This document shows positions 33,787 to 46,083 of a DNA stretch of 64,000 bases, one piece after another; within the stretch, counting starts at the first letter, position 1; every line of letters starts with the position of its first letter. The notes under the pieces are model-generated. The model made no database searches, was not told the origin of the DNA, and saw nothing but the letters and a program-made list of their open reading frames with translations. The translations under genes were made by a program, and so were the position numbers. The stretch spans positions 1-64,000 of the forward strand of contig JAPYTO010000006.1 in the NCBI GenBank assembly GCA_029941865.1, in the 5' to 3' direction. The DNA comes from Fuerstiella sp. Lineage in GTDB: Bacteria; Planctomycetota; Planctomycetia; Planctomycetales; Planctomycetaceae.

Positions 33787-36081
33787 TCATTCGCCCGTGT
33801 TCTGTCCCTTGATGGCATTCCAGACTGTCGGCGGTGACATCGGCAGTTCGCGGAAGCGAACACCCGTTGCTCGATAGATGGCGTTGGCGATCGCCGGAGG
33901 TGGTGGCACGATCGGAACCTCGCCGACTCCACGAACACCGTAGGGATGATCCGGATTGGGAACTTCGACAATGATCGTGTCAATCATCGGCAGGTCGTAG
34001 CACGTCGGTATACGGTAATCCAGGAAGCTGGCGTTTCGCATATGTCCCTGGTCGTCATAGAAATACTCTTCGTTTAACGCCCAGCCGATGCCCTGCACCG
34101 AGCCGCCCTGTATCTGACCTTCCACGTAACTGGGATGGATGGCTTTGCCGGCGTCCTGACAGGCGGTGTAACGCAGGATGGTGACCTTGCCGGTTTCCGG
34201 GTCAACTTCCACGTCGACCAGATTCACGGCAAAGGCGTTGGTCGACCCCTGGGGATCGACAGCTCCGCGGCCGACAATTGGTTTGCCGACTTTGTCTGCC
34301 TGCACGGCCAGTTCTTTGAACGACAGTGACCTGCCGTTGCCCTGATAGACGCCGTTGGCGACTGTGATGTCATCTGGACTGCACTCCCAGATTTGTGCCG
34401 CCTGCTCGACCATCTGTCTTTGAATATCCAGCGCTGCTTCGTAGGCCGCCAGCCCGGTTGCGAAAGTCGTTCGGCTGCCACCCGTTACGTCGGTAAAACC
34501 GACACTGTCTGTGTCGACGACCTGAGGAATCACGTCTTCAGCAGTGATGCCCAGAGTTTCGGCCAACTGCATGGCAATTGATGTCCGCGTGCCGCCGATG
34601 TCCGTGGAACCTTCGACCAGCGTGACTGTACCGTCAGCGTTCACGTTAGCCGCGACGCTGGATTTCAGACCGCAATTGAACCAGAAACCGCAGGCCACGC
34701 CGCGTCCGCGGTTCGGCCCGGTCAGTGGCGATTTCCAGTGGTCACTTTTCTGTATTGCCTGCAGGCATTCCACCAGTCCGACACGTGGATAGACGGGCCC
34801 GTCGACGCGCCGCGTGCCTTCCTGCGCCGCATTGTTCAGGCGAAATTCGATGGGATCGATCTCTAGTTGCTCCGCCAGTTCATCGATGACGCATTCGGTT
34901 GCGAAAGCAACGTGGGTGGATCCGGGAGCCCGATAGGCCTGAGTCTTGGGTTTGTTCAACACCACGTCAAAACCGTCCACTGTGGCGTGCGGCAGGTCAT
35001 AACAGCTGAAGACGCACATGGCCCCGGGACCGATGACACCACCGGGAAATGCGCCCGCATCGAAGGCCAGCCACGCCTTTCCAGCGGTCAGCTTGCCATC
35101 TTTTGTCGCGCCCAGCTTCACACGCATGAATGACCCGGGTGTGGGTCCGGTCGCCTCAAAGACTTCGTCGCGCCGCATCATGATCTTTACAGGACGACCA
35201 CATTTGCGGCTCAGCACGGCAGCGACCGGCTGTTCGTAGACCGAAATCTTGCCGCCGAAACCACCGCCTATTTCGCAAGGAACGATCGTAATCTGCGACA
35301 CCGGCATCTTCAGCAGTTCGGACATCTGCTGTCGTACCACAAACGAACCCTGAGTGGCCGTCCAGATTTTCAGCCGACCGTCTTCGTTCCACAAGGCGAC
35401 GGAAACGTGTGGTTCAATGTAGCCCTGATGGACAGTGGCGGTTTTGAACTCACGTTCGATGACGACGTCGGCCGCTGCAAACCCTTCGTCGATGTCTCCT
35501 TTTTTGAATTGAATATGGCTCGAGATGTTGCTGGGACGGGCCGGCTCGTCACCCAGCGTGTGCGTGATCAGGTCATCGTGCAGCAGAGGCGCGTCGTCCT
35601 GCATGGCGTCCAGTACCGACATCGTCGCCGGCAACGGTTCGTATTCGACCTTGATGTGTCGGGCTGCTTCCTGAGCAAGGTGCGAACTGGTGGCTGCCAC
35701 CGCCGCGACAGCATGTCCTTTATATAACGCTTTTTTTCGAGCCAGCACGTTGCCGGACAGGTGAGCGTAGTTGACGCAGCCTTCGCCGAGGTTGTCCACT
35801 TTGTCCCACGGGTCGGGCAGGTCCGCGGACGTGCAGGTGGCCAGTACGCCCGGCATTTTCTCTGCCTCGCTGGTATCAATCGACACGATGCGGGCATGCG
35901 CGTGCGGACTGCGTACAAAGGCACCAAACACCATGTTGGGCAGGTGCAGATCATCGGTATAGACCGCTTTACCCGTTACCTTGTCAGCGCCATCGTGCCG
36001 TATCGGGCGTGTGCCGATGACCTTGTACGTGGCGGGCTGTTCGGTGTCAGATGTGTTGTCGGGGGCGACTTCAGTACTCAT
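33787..36081 (-). CDS. Xanthine-dehydrogenase-family molybdopterin-binding subunit
   Basis: A 764-residue molybdenum hydroxylase catalytic subunit. The N-terminal a/b-hammerhead begins at RHDGADKVTGKAVYTDDL. The molybdopterin contacts include EIGGGFGGK and the QAYRAPGSTHVAFATE region, and the catalytic Glu is in GVRGVGEVPIVPPPPA near the C-terminus. No signal peptide is present, so the complex is cytoplasmic. The reaction would be hydroxylation of an aldehyde or N-heterocycle; the sequence does not settle which. Its start overlaps the 2Fe-2S subunit stop by four bases. Confidence 0.93.
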   Translation of the reverse strand: MSTEVAPDNTSDTEQPATYKVIGTRPIRHDGADKVTGKAVYTDDLHLPNMVFGAFVRSPHAHARIVSIDTSEAEKMPGVLATCTSADLPDPWDKVDNLGEGCVNYAHLSGNVLARKKALYKGHAVAAVAATSSHLAQEAARHIKVEYEPLPATMSVLDAMQDDAPLLHDDLITHTLGDEPARPSNISSHIQFKKGDIDEGFAAADVVIEREFKTATVHQGYIEPHVSVALWNEDGRLKIWTATQGSFVVRQQMSELLKMPVSQITIVPCEIGGGFGGKISVYEQPVAAVLSRKCGRPVKIMMRRDEVFEATGPTPGSFMRVKLGATKDGKLTAGKAWLAFDAGAFPGGVIGPGAMCVFSCYDLPHATVDGFDVVLNKPKTQAYRAPGSTHVAFATECVIDELAEQLEIDPIEFRLNNAAQEGTRRVDGPVYPRVGLVECLQAIQKSDHWKSPLTGPNRGRGVACGFWFNCGLKSSVAANVNADGTVTLVEGSTDIGGTRTSIAMQLAETLGITAEDVIPQVVDTDSVGFTDVTGGSRTTFATGLAAYEAALDIQRQMVEQAAQIWECSPDDITVANGVYQGNGRSLSFKELAVQADKVGKPIVGRGAVDPQGSTNAFAVNLVDVEVDPETGKVTILRYTACQDAGKAIHPSYVEGQIQGGSVQGIGWALNEEYFYDDQGHMRNASFLDYRIPTCYDLPMIDTIIVEVPNPDHPYGVRGVGEVPIVPPPPAIANAIYRATGVRFRELPMSPPTVWNAIKGQNTGE

Positions 36082-36617
36082 AGCGATTTTGCCTCCGTCT
36101 GCGTTGTTCGCGACAAGAGTCCCGGTCGTTTTGAAAGACCGGGACTCTGTGCTTCAGGTGTCTGAGCGGCGGCCTGCACAGCTCGAACGATCTTGTCGTA
36201 GCCCGTACAGCGGCACAGGTTGCCTGCCAGGCCGAATCGGATTTCCTGTTCGGATGGCTGTGGGTTCTTTTCCAGCAGTGCCTTCGCTGCCACCAGGAAT
36301 CCCGGCGTACAAATGCCGCACTGCAGCGCAGCTCCTTCCAGAAAACACTGCTGCAGGGGATGCAGATGTCCCTGCTCAGCGATGCCTTCGACAGTTTCGA
36401 TGACTGCCCCTTCGGCTTCCACTGCCAGCACCAGGCAACTGTTCACGGGCAATCCGTCCAGCATCACGGTACAGGCTCCACAGTTCCCGTTGTTGCAGCC
36501 TTCTTTACATCCGGTGAGCGAGAGTTCATCGCGCAGTACCTCCAGCAGACTCTGGCGGGGCTGGCACAGAAACTCGACCGATCCACCGTTAATCGTGGTC
36601 GTTACGTGTGTCTTCAC
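36078..36617 (-). CDS. [2Fe-2S] iron-sulfur subunit of the XDH-family complex
   Basis: A 179-residue small subunit carrying both canonical clusters: the plant-type site in CKEGCNNGNCGACTVMLDG with the fourth Cys in NSCL, and the helical-domain site in QCGICTPGF and NLCRCTGY. It relays electrons from the Mo centre to FAD. It serves as the in-window reference for how this subunit should look, in contrast with the altered paralog at 41021. It overlaps the downstream Mo subunit by four bases. Confidence 0.95.
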   Translation of the reverse strand: MKTHVTTTINGGSVEFLCQPRQSLLEVLRDELSLTGCKEGCNNGNCGACTVMLDGLPVNSCLVLAVEAEGAVIETVEGIAEQGHLHPLQQCFLEGAALQCGICTPGFLVAAKALLEKNPQPSEQEIRFGLAGNLCRCTGYDKIVRAVQAAAQTPEAQSPGLSKRPGLLSRTTQTEAKSL

Positions 36618-36686
36618 GTTGCTGGTGAACTCCTTGTGTCAGGACTAATTCATTCCCGGAAAGATTGAGAGCGACGGTCAGATGAT

Positions 36687-37559
36687 TTATGTCCGAGCCC
36701 GTTCACATGCCGTGGCCAATGTTCGTTTGGTCAGGACGCCGACCAGGTGCGTGCGATATTCAGCCGTGCCACGCATGTCGTCGATCGGTGTGGCGACGCG
36801 TTTTGCCAGTTCACCCGCCTTGGCAAACACTTCTTCGCTGGCTGGCTGACCGGACAGCCACTCAGAGGCTTCTGCGGCGAACACAGGTGTCGGCGCGACG
36901 GCCGACAGTGCGATCCGCGCCCGTTCGATCCGTTCGCCGCGTTTGTCCAGCTGTACCCACACAGCAGCTCCGGCAACTGCGATGTCCATTTCGTTGCGTG
37001 GGATAAATCTTTGATAGGCCGATCCGCTGCCCGACGGCTGCGGGGGCAGTGTCAGAGCAACCAGCAGTTCGCCCTGCTGCAGAACATTGCGACCGGGGCC
37101 CGTACAGAATTCTTCAACGGGAACGACGTGGCGTCCGGTCGGCCCGGCAATATGCGCCTGCGCGGAGTATGTAATCAGCGGCGGAATCGCATCGGCGGCC
37201 GGGGACGAATTGCACAGGTTTCCTCCCACGCTGGCGCGGCTTTGAATCTGCCAGCCACCGATGATGCGCACCGCATCAGCCAGCCCCGGGTAAGCGGCTG
37301 CGATATTTTCGTCGTCATAGATTCGCCGGCACGACACGCTCGCACCCAGGTGCAGGCCCTGTTCGCCACAGAACTCCAGTTGAGTCAGTTCGGGAATCTT
37401 TTTGACGTCAATAACCAGATCTGCACTGCGCAGGCCTTCTCGCAGTTGCACGATAATGTCGGTACCGCCGGCCAGGACTCGGGCGCCGTCGCCAGCTGCG
37501 GTGAGCTGTTTTATGGCGTCGTCCAGTTGCGTGGGGGCGGCATATTCAAATTCGATCAC
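36687..37559 (-). CDS. FAD-binding subunit of the XDH-family complex
   Basis: A 290-residue medium subunit of the CO-dehydrogenase flavoprotein type. Both FAD motifs are intact: VLAGGTDI near residue 30 and ASVGGNLCNSSPAAD near residue 110. It lacks a [4Fe-4S] insertion. GTG 37559 is the start, preceded at good spacing by AGGAGG, one of the best ribosome sites in the window. It is the first gene of the minus-strand operon FAD, 2Fe-2S, Mo, MoaD-like, and is divergent from the mocA-like gene 114 bp away, which suggests a shared control region. Confidence 0.93.
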   Translation of the reverse strand: MIEFEYAAPTQLDDAIKQLTAAGDGARVLAGGTDIIVQLREGLRSADLVIDVKKIPELTQLEFCGEQGLHLGASVSCRRIYDDENIAAAYPGLADAVRIIGGWQIQSRASVGGNLCNSSPAADAIPPLITYSAQAHIAGPTGRHVVPVEEFCTGPGRNVLQQGELLVALTLPPQPSGSGSAYQRFIPRNEMDIAVAGAAVWVQLDKRGERIERARIALSAVAPTPVFAAEASEWLSGQPASEEVFAKAGELAKRVATPIDDMRGTAEYRTHLVGVLTKRTLATACERART

Positions 37560-38282: not shown

Positions 38283-38538
38283 GCATCCTTGCAGCAGCCA
38301 GAGTGTCCCGTCTTTTCAGGAGAACGGGACTTCCACATTCGTTGGTGGCTGTATTTGGACCAAAGCGATGGACTCCGGAGGGGGCGGGAAACTAGAATGT
38401 CTGCAGTGCCGTCCTGCTGCTCACGCCTCGTAAGAGCAGCAGCAAGGCGCCGTCTGATCGTGATGCCAACAAACAGCTTGTTCTGCAACGACCGGTCGTT
38501 TCAGTATGATCGTCGATCTCAACAAACAGGGGATTTAC

Positions 38539-39234
38539 ATGCGAGTCGTCATTCTGAGCTCAATGATATTGGCGATTAGCGCCACCGCCGCGCCAGCCGC
38601 GGATCTGGTGAGTGGTACCTATGTCGAAGTGCGAACATGTCAGGTGTATACCGGGCCATGTTTCGCCAATGGCGAAGTGGGTTCGGCCGGCAAGAACGCT
38701 ATCATGACGTGGAAGATCGACGGTGGTCGTTTTGCCGGCGTTGATCTTGCGGGGCAGTCCGTCGCCGTGGTGGTTAAGGCTTCTCACACGCTCGGCTTCA
38801 AGGGGCTTGCCAATGCCGAGACGAAAAAGGCGATCGTCATCATTGGTTCCGCCGCTGACGCTCAGGAAACCTCTGCTCTGAAGGAATTTGCACTCTTACA
38901 AACCGGCCTTGCTGACAAGGAGATCGCGGGCGTTCACCGCGCAGACATCGATATGCAGTTCGATGCTGACAAAGTCACCGCGACTGTCGAGATTCGTGAT
39001 TTCGCTCGACTGATTACCCGCAAGGCGCGAAAGGGTGACTGTATCTGTTCCAACGAATCGGCATACTATCCTCCACTGACAAAACTGAAGGGCTTCGTTC
39101 CGGGGGTCACGATTGAGGGCGAAGTCAAGGCTCGACGCCTGGGCACTCGCTGGTCAATTCCGGATAGCCGGACAGCTTACCTGGGCACTTTTGAAATCGA
39201 TGCTGCTGATTTACAGCTGGCAGAGAGCATCTGA
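38539..39234 (+). CDS. Secreted protein, DUF1326-like
   Basis: A 231-residue protein with signal peptide (MRVVILSSMILAISATAAPA). The mature start GTYVEVRTCQVYTGPCFANGE resembles DUF1326-type proteins. Cys pairs are present there and again in GDCICSNES. AGGGGATTTAC precedes ATG 38539. No function is known. A hairpin (CTGCTGCTC / GAGCAGCAG, 38414-38442) lies in the upstream gap, and another (TCAGACG-TTCTG-CGTCTGA) sits just after its stop. It is the first of three small exported or membrane proteins between the two molybdenum hydroxylase sets. Confidence 0.7.
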   Translation: MRVVILSSMILAISATAAPAADLVSGTYVEVRTCQVYTGPCFANGEVGSAGKNAIMTWKIDGGRFAGVDLAGQSVAVVVKASHTLGFKGLANAETKKAIVIIGSAADAQETSALKEFALLQTGLADKEIAGVHRADIDMQFDADKVTATVEIRDFARLITRKARKGDCICSNESAYYPPLTKLKGFVPGVTIEGEVKARRLGTRWSIPDSRTAYLGTFEIDAADLQLAESI

Positions 39235-39457: not shown

Positions 39458-40132
39458 ATGTTGAAGACCAGCTCCATTCTTGCTGCATTTCTGTTGGTAG
39501 CAAATCTGTCGGCAGCAAAGGGTCAGGAACACAGTGTGGAGTTGATCGATGCCGCACCTGACGCGGACGAAGTTTCGGAGGAACTTACTTCGCAGTTCGC
39601 GGACAACGGCATCCGAATCAAGCGGAGCTCCAGCCGTACCGTTTGCGAGGTTTGGTTCTGCAAACAGTGGCCAGTGGAAGCTGGGTTCAAGGCGACCGAG
39701 GACCGACTGTATCCGTTCGCCCCTGGGCAGCTGATTGGATTACTGCACTTCAGCAGAAGAGGCAAGGACTTTCGTGATCAATCGGTGAGCAGTGGCTGGT
39801 ATACGCTGAGGTTCGGGTTGCAGCCCATCGATGGCAATCATGAAGGGACGTCGCCGACTCGCGATTTTCTGGTGATGGTTGGTGCCGAACAGGACGTGGC
39901 GGATAAGGTGTGGGAAGCGAAAGAATTGATGGAAATGAGTGCAGAAGCGGCCGGATCGACGCACCCGGCGATGATGTGCCTGCAGCGAGCGACCGACGGC
40001 TCAGAGCTGGCGGTCCGGCATAACGAGTCGCACGACTGGTGGATCCTGCACACCGTGGGCAAGGGGACTGCCGACAACAAGACACACGACGTTCCTCTTG
40101 ATCTGGTGGTCGCCGGGCATGCCACAGAATAG
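39458..40132 (+). CDS. Small secreted protein of unknown function
   Basis: A 224-residue protein with a clear signal peptide ending near AKGQ and a strong ribosome site, GGAGGAAAAG. A CEVWFC pair and the central LIGLLHFSRRG and SGWYTLRFGLQPIDGNHEG motifs resemble a planctomycete family that I recall but cannot name. The next gene starts 14 bases before its stop, so the two are translationally coupled. Confidence 0.65.
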   Translation: MLKTSSILAAFLLVANLSAAKGQEHSVELIDAAPDADEVSEELTSQFADNGIRIKRSSSRTVCEVWFCKQWPVEAGFKATEDRLYPFAPGQLIGLLHFSRRGKDFRDQSVSSGWYTLRFGLQPIDGNHEGTSPTRDFLVMVGAEQDVADKVWEAKELMEMSAEAAGSTHPAMMCLQRATDGSELAVRHNESHDWWILHTVGKGTADNKTHDVPLDLVVAGHATE

Positions 40133-40787
40133 TTCTGCACCGCAGGCGTCTGCTGAACATCGTCCGTCGGACGGTACACGCAATCCGTCGGAACGCCGAG
40201 GAGGAATCGGTTCCGACACAACTCGCACCGCTCGATCGCTGGTGGTCTGTGTCAGCTTTGTTGTTTGCTGCGTGGTCTATCTTCAGATTGCACGGTTCAG
40301 TGCGGCCCATGCGATCGAACCGCAGGTGGCGGGGTCACAAGACAAATCGCTGCTGAAGTCGAACGAAGATGCTGAGGGCAAACCTGCGTTCCGAACAGAG
40401 TTAATTCGAGGTCAGGTCGTTTGGCTGGCAGCTGCTCTGAAGAGTAAATTCGGTATTTCCACAGTCCCGGAAGTCGCCGAACATTCACTGGCGCTTCTTA
40501 CGAAAGACGGACACCTGCTGCCAATCGTCGAAAACCTGCGTGGCCGAGCCTTCCGCAAGGACGCACGACTGCGTGGAAAGGATACGGAAATCCTGGTGCG
40601 GCGGTATGACAACCAGCCGTTGATCCAGATTCTGCGGGTTTATGAAATCGAAGACGGGCAGCGGTATGAAGTCGATTACTGGTGCGATATCTGTGCCATT
40701 GTGATGTTTGAAACAGGACCCTGTGCCTGCTGTCAGGACGACAATCGGCTGCGAAAACGGTTGGCGGCAGACGACGACCAGGACTGA
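40119..40787 (+). CDS. Single-pass membrane protein with a C-terminal cysteine cluster
   Basis: About 222 residues from ATG 40119, which lies inside the end of the preceding gene. One membrane segment (SLVVCVSFVVCCVVYLQIA) is followed by an exported domain that ends in CDICAIVMFETGPCACC. The C-x2-C and C-x-C-C arrangement could bind a metal or form disulfides. An upstream TTG (40098) would add seven residues. No family is recognised. Confidence 0.62.
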   Translation: MPQNSSAPQASAEHRPSDGTRNPSERRGGIGSDTTRTARSLVVCVSFVVCCVVYLQIARFSAAHAIEPQVAGSQDKSLLKSNEDAEGKPAFRTELIRGQVVWLAAALKSKFGISTVPEVAEHSLALLTKDGHLLPIVENLRGRAFRKDARLRGKDTEILVRRYDNQPLIQILRVYEIEDGQRYEVDYWCDICAIVMFETGPCACCQDDNRLRKRLAADDDQD

Positions 40788-41020: not shown

Positions 41021-41605
41021 ATGTCACAACAATCCTCCCAAGGCGTCAGTCGGCGTGGGTTCTTAAAGGGCTCTGGCGCTGCTGTCGCGGCCTCAACGGT
41101 CGTGTCATCGACTGAAGCGGAAGCCGCCGCACCAGGTCTACAGGTTGTCAGCGGCGAAACTTCCATCACCATGAAGGTGAACGGAAAGTCGATGACGGCA
41201 AAGGTCGAGCCACGAACAACTCTGCTGGACGTATTGCGGTACCAGTTCGATCTGACGGGTGCCAAGCCGGTCAGTCTGGATGGCAGCAGCGGAGCCAGCA
41301 CTGTGTTGGTTGGTGGCAAGGCCGTGATGGCTTCCACGACTCTGGCACTGGCCGTTGCCCGTAAAGAGGTCACGACATGTGAAAGTCTCGGCGGTGATGT
41401 AGTGCCTGCAGCGTTCGTCGAACACGACGCTCAGCAGTGTGGCTTCTGCACGCCGGGTTTTGTGGTTGCCGTGCGAGCGTTCCTGAACAGACATCCTGAT
41501 GCCACGGAAGAGCAGATCCGTGCCGGACTCAACGGCAACATCTGTCGCTGCGGCACCTACGCGAATATTCTTCAGGCCGTCATTTCTCTTGTGAAAGGAA
41601 ATTAA
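41021..41605 (+). CDS. Tat-exported 2Fe-2S subunit of an XDH-family complex lacking its first cluster ligands
   Basis: A 194-residue small subunit with a twin-arginine signal (SRRGFLKGSG), so it would carry the complex to the periplasm as PaoA does. The fold matches other XDH small subunits (TLLDVLRYQFDLTGAKP). The plant-type cluster positions, normally Cys-x4-Cys-x2-Cys-x11-Cys, are all Ser here: Ser85, Ser90, Ser93 and Ser105 at exactly that spacing. The second cluster is intact, with Cys140 and Cys143 in QCGFCTPGF and Cys175 and Cys177 in NICRCGTY. Only one [2Fe-2S] centre can therefore be expected. It starts the operon; the Mo-subunit gene follows after one base. Confidence 0.92.
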   Translation: MSQQSSQGVSRRGFLKGSGAAVAASTVVSSTEAEAAAPGLQVVSGETSITMKVNGKSMTAKVEPRTTLLDVLRYQFDLTGAKPVSLDGSSGASTVLVGGKAVMASTTLALAVARKEVTTCESLGGDVVPAAFVEHDAQQCGFCTPGFVVAVRAFLNRHPDATEEQIRAGLNGNICRCGTYANILQAVISLVKGN

Positions 41606-41606
41606 A

Positions 41607-43838
41607 ATGGCTGAAGTTACCTACAGCTGGCCCGAAAATCACAAAGCCCGTCTGATTGGCAAACGTATCAGTCGTCTGGACGGTATGGAGAAGTCGACCG
41701 GCACAGCGAAATATACGTATGACATCAATCTTCCCAAACAGTTGATTGTACGTGCGCTGGGTTGTCCGCATGCTCATTGTCGCGTCATATCAGTAGATGC
41801 GTCCGCGGCCGAAAGGGTGGCCGGTGTTGTACTGGTCCACATGATCAAAGCCCCCGGGCCAGGCGACGACCCTGTTGAAATTCGTGCGGACGGCACACTG
41901 CTGGTGGCCGTCGCCGCGGAAACAGAAGCGGCCGCTGCAGAAGGCGTGTCAAAACTGAAGGTCAAGTATGAGTTGCTTGAATCCTTTGTCGACGATCATG
42001 ATCTGCAGGCGGCCGAGGCAAAGAAACGAACGAAGAAGGCCGGAGGCGGCATTGAACTGGACGAGGCGCTTGGTGAACCCGGTGATGATGACGACGAAGA
42101 AGAGTGGGAGGAACAAAAGGTTCAGGAACTGTTCGCTCAATCGAAGTACGTCGTCGAAGGCAACTACGGCATCGATACGATTACTCACTGCTGTCTTGAG
42201 CCACACGGTTCAACACTGCATTGGGAAGGTGACCGGCTGAAAGTTAATCTGTCAACACAAAACGTCTCAAGAACGGATGACGGTTACGCGGATGCCCTGA
42301 AGATATCTGCTGATGAAGTCGATGTGCACTGCGAATACATCGGCGGCGGATTTGGCAGCAAGTTTAAGCCTGATTACTGGGGGATCACGGCTGCGGAGAT
42401 CGCGAAGAAGACGGGTCGTCCGATCAAATTCCTGCTGACTCGAGATCAGGAGCTGAAGATTGGCGGCAATCGTCCGTCCGGCTTCATCGATGTCAAGCTC
42501 GGTGCAGACGAGAACGGTGTTGTTCAGGTCTGGGACTCCCATCACTGGGGAACCTCCGGGTTCAACGGATCGACCGTCTCGGTGGGTAACTTTCCGTACG
42601 TCTTTCGGCCCAAAAACTGGCGCCGTCGTGCAACCGGCATCATTACCGACAACGAGCCATCAGTTGCCTGGCGGGCTCCAAATCATCCGCAGGCTTGCGC
42701 AATCACGCAGACCGCCTACGATGACCTGGCTGCTAAGATGCAGGCTGACAGTCTCGACATCTTTTTGCGCAACCTTGAAAACATCGACTCGCCTGAAAAG
42801 TCGCTGGTCTACGCAGAGCAGTTGCGAATTGCGGCTGATCTGATCGACTGGCGTAAACACTGGCATCTGCACGGAAAAGGCAATCGGCGCGGGTCCGTGG
42901 TTGAGGGCCTGGGCATTGGTATTCACAAATGGGGTGGCACTGCGAACAGCTCGAACTGCCTGCTGAAGATTCATCCCGATGGTGGTGTCGAGTCGTACTG
43001 CGGCACTCAGGATCTGGGCACCGGAACGCGCACCATCTGTGCAATGGTTCTTGCCGAAACACTGGGATTGCCAATCGACGCTGTCAAAGTCAACATCGGA
43101 AGTTCGACGTACCCATTCAGTGGTGCATCCGGCGGAAGTACAACGGTCGGTGCCGTCAGTGAATCACATCGTCGCGCGGCACAGGAAGTTCTGGCACAGA
43201 TTTTTGATCTGGTTGCCGGGAAGCTGGAAGTGCCAGCCGATAAACTGGAGGCTTCCAACGGAAGTATTTCTGTAGTTGGCTACAGCGACAAATCAATGTC
43301 GTGGAAACAGGCCTGCAGTCTTATCGGTATCCAACCGCTGGAAGTGACGTCGATCTACAAACGAGGCGACGATAGTCCGTTGTCGAGTTCAAACGTTGCC
43401 GGTTGTCAAATGGCTCGTGTGGCCGTTGATACGGATACCGGCGTCGTGAAGATTATCAAAATGGTGGCTGTTCAGGACATGGGCCTGGTCATGAATCGCA
43501 AGACCGCCGAGAGTCAGATTTACGGCGCCTTGATCATGAGTATTGCTGCGGCACTGTTCGAACAACGAATCAACGATCCGAAGACGGGTGCGTTTATCAA
43601 CAGTGAACTGGATAATTATCGACTGCCTCGACTCGGCGATACTGGAGAACTGGTTGTTCATTTCCATGAACCGGAGAGCGAAAGAGCCCGAGGGGTGATC
43701 GGTCTGGGAGAACCGCCGGCTATCAGTGGAGGTGCTGCGATTGCGAATGCTGTTTGCAATGCCACCGGCGTCCGTGTTCCAACTCTGCCGCTCACGCCCA
43801 AACGCGTGCTCGACGCACTCCGAACTGCGAAAGGTTAA
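41607..43838 (+). CDS. Molybdopterin-binding subunit of the second XDH-family complex
   Basis: A 743-residue catalytic subunit. The expected motifs are intact: RLDGMEKSTGTAKYTYDI at the start, YIGGGFGSKF, SGASGGSTTVGAVSES (cofactor contacts) and the catalytic Glu in VIGLGEPPA. There is an unusual acidic insert, Asp/Glu-rich, around residues 150-172 (GDDDDEEEWEEQ). It has no signal of its own, so export would be by co-transport with the Tat-bearing small subunit. The substrate is unknown. It is followed five bases later by the FAD-type subunit. Confidence 0.92.
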   Translation: MAEVTYSWPENHKARLIGKRISRLDGMEKSTGTAKYTYDINLPKQLIVRALGCPHAHCRVISVDASAAERVAGVVLVHMIKAPGPGDDPVEIRADGTLLVAVAAETEAAAAEGVSKLKVKYELLESFVDDHDLQAAEAKKRTKKAGGGIELDEALGEPGDDDDEEEWEEQKVQELFAQSKYVVEGNYGIDTITHCCLEPHGSTLHWEGDRLKVNLSTQNVSRTDDGYADALKISADEVDVHCEYIGGGFGSKFKPDYWGITAAEIAKKTGRPIKFLLTRDQELKIGGNRPSGFIDVKLGADENGVVQVWDSHHWGTSGFNGSTVSVGNFPYVFRPKNWRRRATGIITDNEPSVAWRAPNHPQACAITQTAYDDLAAKMQADSLDIFLRNLENIDSPEKSLVYAEQLRIAADLIDWRKHWHLHGKGNRRGSVVEGLGIGIHKWGGTANSSNCLLKIHPDGGVESYCGTQDLGTGTRTICAMVLAETLGLPIDAVKVNIGSSTYPFSGASGGSTTVGAVSESHRRAAQEVLAQIFDLVAGKLEVPADKLEASNGSISVVGYSDKSMSWKQACSLIGIQPLEVTSIYKRGDDSPLSSSNVAGCQMARVAVDTDTGVVKIIKMVAVQDMGLVMNRKTAESQIYGALIMSIAAALFEQRINDPKTGAFINSELDNYRLPRLGDTGELVVHFHEPESERARGVIGLGEPPAISGGAAIANAVCNATGVRVPTLPLTPKRVLDALRTAKG

Positions 43839-43843
43839 TTCCC

Positions 43844-44893
43844 ATGAAGAATTTCGAGTACGCGCAGCCGACGACGGAAAGCGAAGCCGTTGCTCTGCTG
43901 ACGGAGCCGAAGAAAGAAACGGCGATTCTGGCCGGTGGTACGGATCTTGTCGGGCTGATGAAGCGGATGGTCGTGACGGCTGACCGAGTTGTCAACATCT
44001 GCGAGATCAAGTCGCTGCAGCAGATCGAACGGGACGACAGCGGGAGCGTCTGGATTGGCGCGGCTGTCTGTCTGGACGAGTTTCTTGATGACAAAAATAC
44101 AGACGAATTCCCCTCAGCCAAACAGGTGATTCAGGGGATCAGCAGTATTCAGCTGCAGTCGCAGGGCACGTTGGTGGGCGAGCTGATGCGGCGACCGAAC
44201 TGCTGGTATTTTCGCGAGGGGCACGGATTACTGGCTGACAGTGGTCGCATGGTTAACGAAGGCGACAACCGATATCACGCCATTCTTGGCAACCGCGGAC
44301 CGGCCAGATTTGTCAATGCGTCCCGGCTGGCTCCTTCCCTGATCACGTTGGGCGCTCAGGTTCGAATTATCGGCCCCGGAAAGGACGAGGAGCAGATTCT
44401 GGATCTGGCCAGTCTTTACCGGACGCCTGCGGCTGACAGCGAACTGGAAAACGTATTGCAGCCCGGGCAGCTTGTGACACATGTGATCATCCCGGCTCAC
44501 GGTGACCGACTTAGTGCGGCCTACGAGGTCCGTCATGGGGAAGGTCCGGATCAGCCACTGGCCGCTGCTGCCGTCAGCATGGATGTGGTGTCGGGCAAGG
44601 TGCAGAATGCCAGTATCGTGTTGGGGCAGGTCGCTCCGGAACCCTGGATCGCGAGTGCCGCAGCTCGGTCACTGTGTGGTAAAGTCGTCAACGAAGAAAC
44701 TGCTGCAATCGCCGGAATTGAAGCACTGGCCGGTGCGATGCCACTTTCTCAGAACGAATACAAAATTCAGCTCGCCCAGGTCGCGGTCAAGCGTGCCGTG
44801 TTGAAAGCCGCGGGCTATGACACCGGCGGACTGGACAGCCCCATGCTAAATGAACCCTCAGCGTCGCCGTCACTTGAAACACATATTGCCTAG
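43844..44893 (+). CDS. FAD-type subunit of the second XDH-family complex with a degenerate second motif
   Basis: A 349-residue medium subunit. The first FAD motif ILAGGTDL is normal. The second, usually xGTxGGNL, reads QGTLVGEL (107-114), with Gly and Asn replaced. The following PaoB-type segment keeps the frame RPNCWYFREGHGLL and EGDNRYHAILGN, but only the first Cys (Cys120) remains where PaoB-type proteins have four [4Fe-4S] ligands. Some related families lack these cysteines too, so that loss alone may not be unique. The C-terminal domain (AAYEVRHGEG; VKRAVLKAAG) is normal. It ends 92 bp before the Cys-rich gene, with a GC hairpin at 44914-44949 between them. Confidence 0.88.
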   Translation: MKNFEYAQPTTESEAVALLTEPKKETAILAGGTDLVGLMKRMVVTADRVVNICEIKSLQQIERDDSGSVWIGAAVCLDEFLDDKNTDEFPSAKQVIQGISSIQLQSQGTLVGELMRRPNCWYFREGHGLLADSGRMVNEGDNRYHAILGNRGPARFVNASRLAPSLITLGAQVRIIGPGKDEEQILDLASLYRTPAADSELENVLQPGQLVTHVIIPAHGDRLSAAYEVRHGEGPDQPLAAAAVSMDVVSGKVQNASIVLGQVAPEPWIASAAARSLCGKVVNEETAAIAGIEALAGAMPLSQNEYKIQLAQVAVKRAVLKAAGYDTGGLDSPMLNEPSASPSLETHIA

Positions 44894-45267: not shown

Positions 45268-46083
45268 TCAGAACAACTTCGTCTTCTGTTCAATGATTCC
45301 CAGTCGATCGCGTTCCTGGATAAGCTGCGACAGGACACTGATGGCGACTTCAGGTGGTGTGTTGTTGCCCATGGGCAGACCCATCGGACAAAAGAAGGAC
45401 GCGATCTTTTCATCAGAAACGCCCATTTCTTTAAGATCCCGTCGCACGACTTTTGCTTTTTGCAGACTTCCCAGGACTCCAATATACGGTGGTTGAATCG
45501 TCTGTAGCGCCTCTGCCAGAACGGGCAGGTCGTTGGCGTGTCCCTGAGTCATCAGCACAAAAAAGCTGCGAGGATCCAGCCGGTGCACTTCGTCCTTCAG
45601 AACCTGTCTGCAGATCTTCGTCAGTTTGGGGTGTTCCGGCAGCCGATCGAGCCAGTCCTGTCTCTGGTCGATCCAGGTCACTCGACAATTCATCTGCAGC
45701 AGAATGGGAACGAGAGCCTGGGCGATATGCCCGGCACCGAAAAGTGAAATCTTCCAGTCGTTGCAAAGGTATAATTCAAAGAAGAATTTGACTTCGCCGC
45801 CACAGGTCATGCCGATGTCTGTTTGCAGGTTCCATGTCACAAACTGACAACTGCGCCCGTTTGCGGCCTCAAGCATGTCAATGGCCTGTGCAATGGCACG
45901 TGCCTCGACCCTGCCGCCACCGACGGTTCCGTCAACAATGCCGTCAGCGGTGACGACCGCCTTCGCACCAGGAATCTGAGGGGCGCTTCCGCGGACGTCG
46001 ATCATCGTTATGACCGCAAATGGCGTATTGTTCTGCAGCAGTTCAGAAACTTTCTGCCAGTGCCGATGGACATCGAACGCCAT
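45268..46083 (-). CDS. xdhC: XdhC/CoxI-family maturation protein
   Basis: A 271-residue accessory protein that binds molybdenum cofactor, promotes its sulfuration and inserts it into XDH-family enzymes. The N-terminal XdhC domain has GSAPQIPGAKAVV and DGTVGGGRVEA; the C-terminal Rossmann domain has ISLFGAGHIAQALV and a YIGVLGS motif. It is convergent with the second XDH-family operon (42 bp gap), so it is controlled separately but probably serves one or both complexes. Confidence 0.92.
   Translation of the reverse strand: MAFDVHRHWQKVSELLQNNTPFAVITMIDVRGSAPQIPGAKAVVTADGIVDGTVGGGRVEARAIAQAIDMLEAANGRSCQFVTWNLQTDIGMTCGGEVKFFFELYLCNDWKISLFGAGHIAQALVPILLQMNCRVTWIDQRQDWLDRLPEHPKLTKICRQVLKDEVHRLDPRSFFVLMTQGHANDLPVLAEALQTIQPPYIGVLGSLQKAKVVRRDLKEMGVSDEKIASFFCPMGLPMGNNTPPEVAISVLSQLIQERDRLGIIEQKTKLF

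Follow-up and report, generated by a model that had tools for sequence, protein, structure and literature searches.

Analysis of a 64,000-nucleotide stretch of a Fuerstiella sp. contig (hereafter the window) revealed a three-subunit molybdenum hydroxylase operon whose exported iron-sulfur subunit lacks all four cysteine ligands of the distal, plant-type [2Fe-2S] cluster. The sequences document this ligand loss together with intact proximal ligands, intact Mo-subunit motifs, purifying selection and recurrence among relatives. We put the probability at roughly 0.5 that the operon encodes an exported PaoABC-type Mo hydroxylase that has lost its distal cluster and from which electrons leave at the proximal cluster to a periplasmic carrier. 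The genes concerned are listed in Table 1.

Table 1. Operon genes and neighbouring genes in the window
Feature	Position	Strand	Characteristics
DUF1326 protein, probably secreted	38506..39234	+	Pfam PF07040; co-occurs with operon
Probably secreted protein, no Pfam match	39458..40132	+	Operon-linked in many relatives
Cys-rich protein, probably secreted	40119..40787	+	C-terminal DYWCxxCxIxM...CxCCQ; no Pfam/NCBIfam match
Fe-S small subunit	41021..41605	+	Tat signal; Ser85/90/93/105; Cys140/143/175/177; AlphaFold model and Foldseek search
Mo (molybdopterin) subunit, PaoC-like	41607..43838	+	GGGFGSK, RAP and GLGEPP intact
FAD subunit, PaoB-like	43844..44893 (likely ATG 43844)	+	AGGTDL kept; [4Fe-4S] Cys lost except one
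XdhC/CoxI-type maturation chaperone	45268..46083	-	Pfam XdhC_C, XdhC_CoxI

Ligand sites of the small subunit

The small-subunit product (194 aa; KPVSLDGSSGASTVLVGGKAVMAST) carries the twin-arginine signal SRRGFLK. Its translation bears out the preliminary description, which had reported serine at all four plant-type [2Fe-2S] ligand sites with the C-x4-C-x2-C-x11-C spacing and an intact second (proximal) cluster, all four of whose cysteines are present. Pfam matched Fer2_2 and TAT_signal in this product and did not match Fer2. A second XDH-type operon (33787-37559, minus strand; Mo, small and FAD subunits) lies a few kb off in the window; its small subunit (36078-36617, minus strand) shows no Tat match and, as had been stated, keeps all eight cysteines, with Fer2 recognised by Pfam.

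The same four serines were seen in about 20 other loci, mostly from separate assemblies. Codons at the four sites in this Ser clade are AGY, AGY, AGY and TCN, each one base away from TGY, and third codon positions change (AGT/AGC) with the residue constant. The probability that the serines are a sequencing or assembly artefact is negligible: metagenome assembly accounts for most of the relatives that have a named record, but the artefact reading is contradicted by the loss recurring in dozens of assemblies, structured by clade and with frame and length preserved, and the one-contig genomes G047 and G072 show ligand loss too.

Ligand states among relatives

Relatives were drawn from 148 related genomes and from GTDB contigs, with flanking DNA retrieved; the closest named ones are Fuerstiella metagenome assemblies from the GTDB contigs. 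The final set comprised 145 small subunits, of which 92 have four plant-type cysteines, 49 have none and 4, all from a single genus, have one; these figures count sequences rather than events and include some near-duplicates between two collections. Untruncated members of the set have all four proximal cysteines, incomplete proximal ligands occurring only at L029 and L188, where an in-frame stop or a contig end cuts the gene.

Tabulation of the four positions across homologues, a check proposed in the preliminary description, revealed that a whole clade of planctomycete sequences has the Ser pattern. The Ser clade spans more than 20 planctomycete loci, with the minor variants TSSS, SSSA, SSAA and SAAD. 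Its sister clade mixes ligand-loss members with Cys-intact ones, and replacements there include Asp, Gly, Ala, Glu, Gln, Lys and others: ligand 1 is variable, ligand 2 mostly D/S/A/V, ligand 3 always D and ligand 4 G/S/N. The all-Ser trait thus held for the Ser clade but not for the sister clade, which lost the same ligands with other residues in their place. Because these sites hold other residues, the comparison suggests that the shared trait is a missing cluster, not a Ser ligand set.

The alternative that a different metal or an atypical cluster occupies the Ser/Asp site, the centre being replaced rather than lost, appears improbable. High conservation of the Ser columns within the Ser clade and the recurrence of Asp at ligand 3 throughout the sister-clade losses would fit such a site, but no consistent ligand set emerges, Ala, Gly, Val, Lys or Asn being found at these positions in related members, and SAAD and SSAA occur among the basal members of the Ser clade itself.

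The lone-Cys genus (L128, L202, L204 and L207) combines its single leftover cysteine with one inserted residue in what was the cluster loop, a state that is a possible intermediate of ligand loss. A strictly all-or-none loss fitted the first sample and was abandoned when the larger set and a corrected alignment yielded this genus.

Purifying selection and predicted fold

Pairs of Ser-clade small subunits gave dN/dS values of about 0.03-0.1, and conservation within the clade is 95-100% at the four Ser columns, against an average of 81% for the mature protein as a whole. The AlphaFold model of the small subunit (built with 41 sequences) has a mean pLDDT of 82, and the loop where the cluster would have sat falls within blocks of high confidence. 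Foldseek returned XO-family small subunits as its best matches, for example 5y6q and PaoA of 5g5g, at about 1.5 Å over 150 residues.

Because the loss is concerted, the subunit is under purifying selection and its predicted fold is intact, the loss of ligands is not decay, in agreement with the earlier interpretation, the lone-Cys genus being the exception to a complete 0/4 state. The companion proposal of selection for a cluster-free fold is consistent with the concerted loss and the purifying selection; its emphasis on serine did not carry over, the residues not being specifically Ser.

Number of losses

Phylogenetic analysis of the Mo subunit (93 rows) revealed at least 8 state changes, 5 of them forced by well-supported branches. 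A single clade was rejected for all loss rows (AU p=3.6e-67) and for the 26 non-Ser loss rows (p=1.5e-76), and a ten-row D-rich subset was compatible with one (p=0.29); these clade-test p-values are optimistic, the tested groups having been defined after the first tree was viewed. If regain is taken as impossible, the Mo tree implies about 6 to 11 losses.

A single loss, followed by spread of the small-subunit gene or of its loop alone by recombination among linked operons, is an unlikely history that nevertheless carries appreciable weight, and it is compatible with our preferred reading of the enzyme. The small-subunit tree, computed with the loop left out, is compatible with one origin (p=0.18 and 0.26), and the possible Mo-tree clade of the D-rich subset points the same way. 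Against this, the small, Mo and FAD subunits of the L128 group are all nearest, by nearest-neighbour identity, to Cys-intact sequences, which favours an independent loss in that group. The loop of this group reads DTTSC, close to the intact DTTNC, and the loops of L122 and of the Q/KDDG loss group are unlike each other.

Mo and FAD subunits

Domain analysis of the Mo subunit matched PF02738, PF20256 and PF01315, so that the MoCoBD domains are present, and the active-site Glu motif is there with GGGFGSK and GLGEPP; among relatives, the Mo-site motifs are conserved nearly wherever the region is covered. Met199->Cys in this subunit was considered as a compensatory change and rejected: Cys is common at this site in Cys-intact Acidobacteria, and a pair test gave nothing.

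In the FAD subunit, Pfam matched FAD_binding_5 and CO_deh_flav_C and the GGTD motif is present, FAD binding itself being predicted. PaoB carries a [4Fe-4S] cluster, and PaoB-type relatives have extra FAD-subunit cysteines that, from knowledge of PaoB and 4-hydroxybenzoyl-CoA reductase, we take to be its ligands. The window's FAD subunit retains only the Cys of RPNCWYFR. More of these cysteines are kept in, for example, L070, L072-L074, L147, L153, L162, L167, L169, L173 and L178, and their loss extends to Cys-intact relatives among Acidobacteria and planctomycetes. Because Cys-intact relatives share it, the [4Fe-4S] loss is probably the older event on this sample, with the distal [2Fe-2S] ligands lost later; this order suggests that simplification began in the FAD branch, before the distal [2Fe-2S] ligands were lost.

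The FAD subunit is present at loss loci wherever the stretch is readable, and GGTD is mostly kept. Altered forms (AGTD, SGMD, AGMD and GGID) occur in loss lineages L116, L118, L123, L126, L132 and L120. The FAD/Mo relative rate, calculated from pairs that are not independent, was 1.31 in the Ser clade, 1.38 in one other loss set and 1.11-1.12 in Cys-intact sets, with no increase in the Q/KDDG loss group (1.08). These values hint that the FAD subunit may be under relaxed constraint in the Ser clade and the one other loss set.

Neighbouring genes

The three genes upstream of the small subunit encode proteins whose secretion was judged by eye from their N-termini; some other relatives have the DUF1326 and Cys-rich genes after the FAD gene or at another place in the genome. 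For the Cys-rich gene, we inferred a start at the in-frame ATG 40119 (the ORF finder gives TTG 40098); the C-terminal motif of its product is invariant. A sulfatase gene (PF00884; 46321-48006, plus strand) also adjoins the operon.

Co-occurrence was counted in 90 genomes of the family: 44 of 48 with a Tat-type small subunit and 1 of 42 without one have the Cys-rich gene (p=1.6e-19), and 43 of 48 and 1 of 42, respectively, have the DUF1326 gene (p=7e-19); these are hand-transcribed lists with a short contig-end fragment in G023 uncounted, and the p-values are uncorrected for kinship. Since both genes accompany Cys-intact and loss operons alike, their products look like enzyme partners, not cluster substitutes. 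The third gene type (39458..40132) likewise occurs beside Cys-intact operons. An early enrichment had made the Cys-rich gene a candidate for a loss-specific replacement carrier, an idea dropped when a genome-wide search found it with Cys-intact operons too. Among the neighbours compared, no gene was gained specifically with cluster loss, and a text search of the ORFs found the CxxCH cytochrome c motif in no conserved neighbouring gene family. None of the three neighbour proteins had a significant PDB match; the model of the Cys-rich protein gave weak matches only, many of them to OB-fold proteins.

Electron route

Because the distal cluster would be missing, the usual Mo-to-FAD chain would be interrupted, and that electrons leave by another route, as the preliminary description had proposed, may reasonably be inferred. 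The most likely route appears to lead out at the proximal cluster to an external carrier, the next most likely being a direct but slow hop to FAD. In the preferred reading, the plant-ferredoxin-type [2Fe-2S] cluster would be physically absent and its domain kept as a structural piece of an enzyme that would still be catalytic. Electrons would pass from Mo to the proximal [2Fe-2S] cluster and on to a periplasmic carrier, bypassing FAD, which would be retained in a structural or side role; candidate partners are the three neighbour proteins that are probably secreted. Several points count against this reading: a retained FAD subunit with a mostly kept GGTD motif would be hard to explain if FAD had no use, the Q/KDDG group does not show the rate increase, and no gene gained specifically with cluster loss was found. 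That the proximal cluster acts as the terminal internal centre, handing electrons to the secreted DUF1326 or Cys-rich partner, and that this arrangement evolved several times, each time separately and from ancestors that had the full chain, is a speculative and unlikely proposition.

Alternatively, the cluster may be gone with FAD still the acceptor, reached in a single long hop straight from the proximal cluster or with the FAD subunit slightly displaced, at slow turnover; we regard this as rather unlikely. Retention of the FAD subunit and its GGTD motif in the Ser clade would fit, and hops near 20 Å can still allow turnover of about 1 per second. However, the distal cluster usually bridges the proximal cluster and FAD in the XO family, and some loss lineages have an altered GGTD motif.

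It is more doubtful still that the complex has no net redox chemistry and serves as a redox-neutral or binding protein. The distal [2Fe-2S] and [4Fe-4S] ligand sets are both gone, as such a role would allow. Against it stand the retained Mo-pocket motifs and proximal cluster, the strong purifying selection acting on the small subunit, and an XdhC chaperone gene close by. The presence of this gene is suggestive of a Mo cofactor with a sulfido ligand.

Relation to known systems

The operon product has the Mo-subunit domains, active-site motif, proximal [2Fe-2S] ligands and FAD subunit of the XO family. Because the distal [2Fe-2S] ligands are missing (Ser at all four sites, no Fer2 match), sequence comparison places it as a homologue and variant of the xanthine oxidase family, not a standard member. 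It scored far below the NCBIfam equivalog cut-offs for PaoA (135.8 versus 322 bits) and PaoC (295.9 versus 1180 bits); of the PaoABC traits, it has the Tat signal on the small subunit and lacks all but one of the [4Fe-4S] cysteines of the FAD subunit.

E. coli PaoABC (PDB 5G5G) likewise has three subunits and a Tat signal on the small subunit. In PDB sequence comparisons it was the top match to the small and Mo subunits and the second best to the FAD subunit, and in the fold comparison of the small subunit it ranked second. Unlike the operon described here, which lacks the distal [2Fe-2S] and the [4Fe-4S] ligands, PaoABC has both [2Fe-2S] clusters. Cys-intact Tat-type relatives from planctomycetes and Acidobacteria (for example L119, L140 and L059) share the small-Mo-FAD order, the Mo motifs and the absence of [4Fe-4S] ligands from the FAD subunit; unlike the window's operon, they keep all four plant-type cysteines.

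Family enzymes generally have two distinct [2Fe-2S] clusters (PMC3958847), and electrons pass from Mo through both to FAD or an external protein (PMC12316806). A shortened chain is found in Desulfovibrio gigas aldehyde oxidoreductase (MOP), an XO-family enzyme with no FAD domain (PMC12316806, PMC3958847). MOP keeps both clusters without FAD, whereas here the FAD subunit is kept and the distal-cluster ligands are lost. Some MutY homologues are naturally Fe-S-less, with the ligand cysteines lost and the fold retained; unlike the XO-family distal cluster, however, the MutY cluster is no substrate-acceptor relay. A search of the open-access literature, with most subscription literature outside its reach, found no description of XO-family members without the plant-type cluster. 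Novelty is to that extent provisional; the preliminary description likewise knew of no described subfamily with the Ser trait.

The chain from Mo through the proximal and distal clusters to FAD is treated as the general layout of the family. In the ligand-loss planctomycete enzymes, this usual internal electron wire appears to have been cut, and the real route is now a testable question. The loss set, standing beside close Cys-intact relatives, offers a ready-made experiment on the role of each relay centre. The same natural set bears on the question of which acceptor periplasmic PaoABC-type enzymes use; that of PaoABC has been reported as unidentified (PMC3958847).
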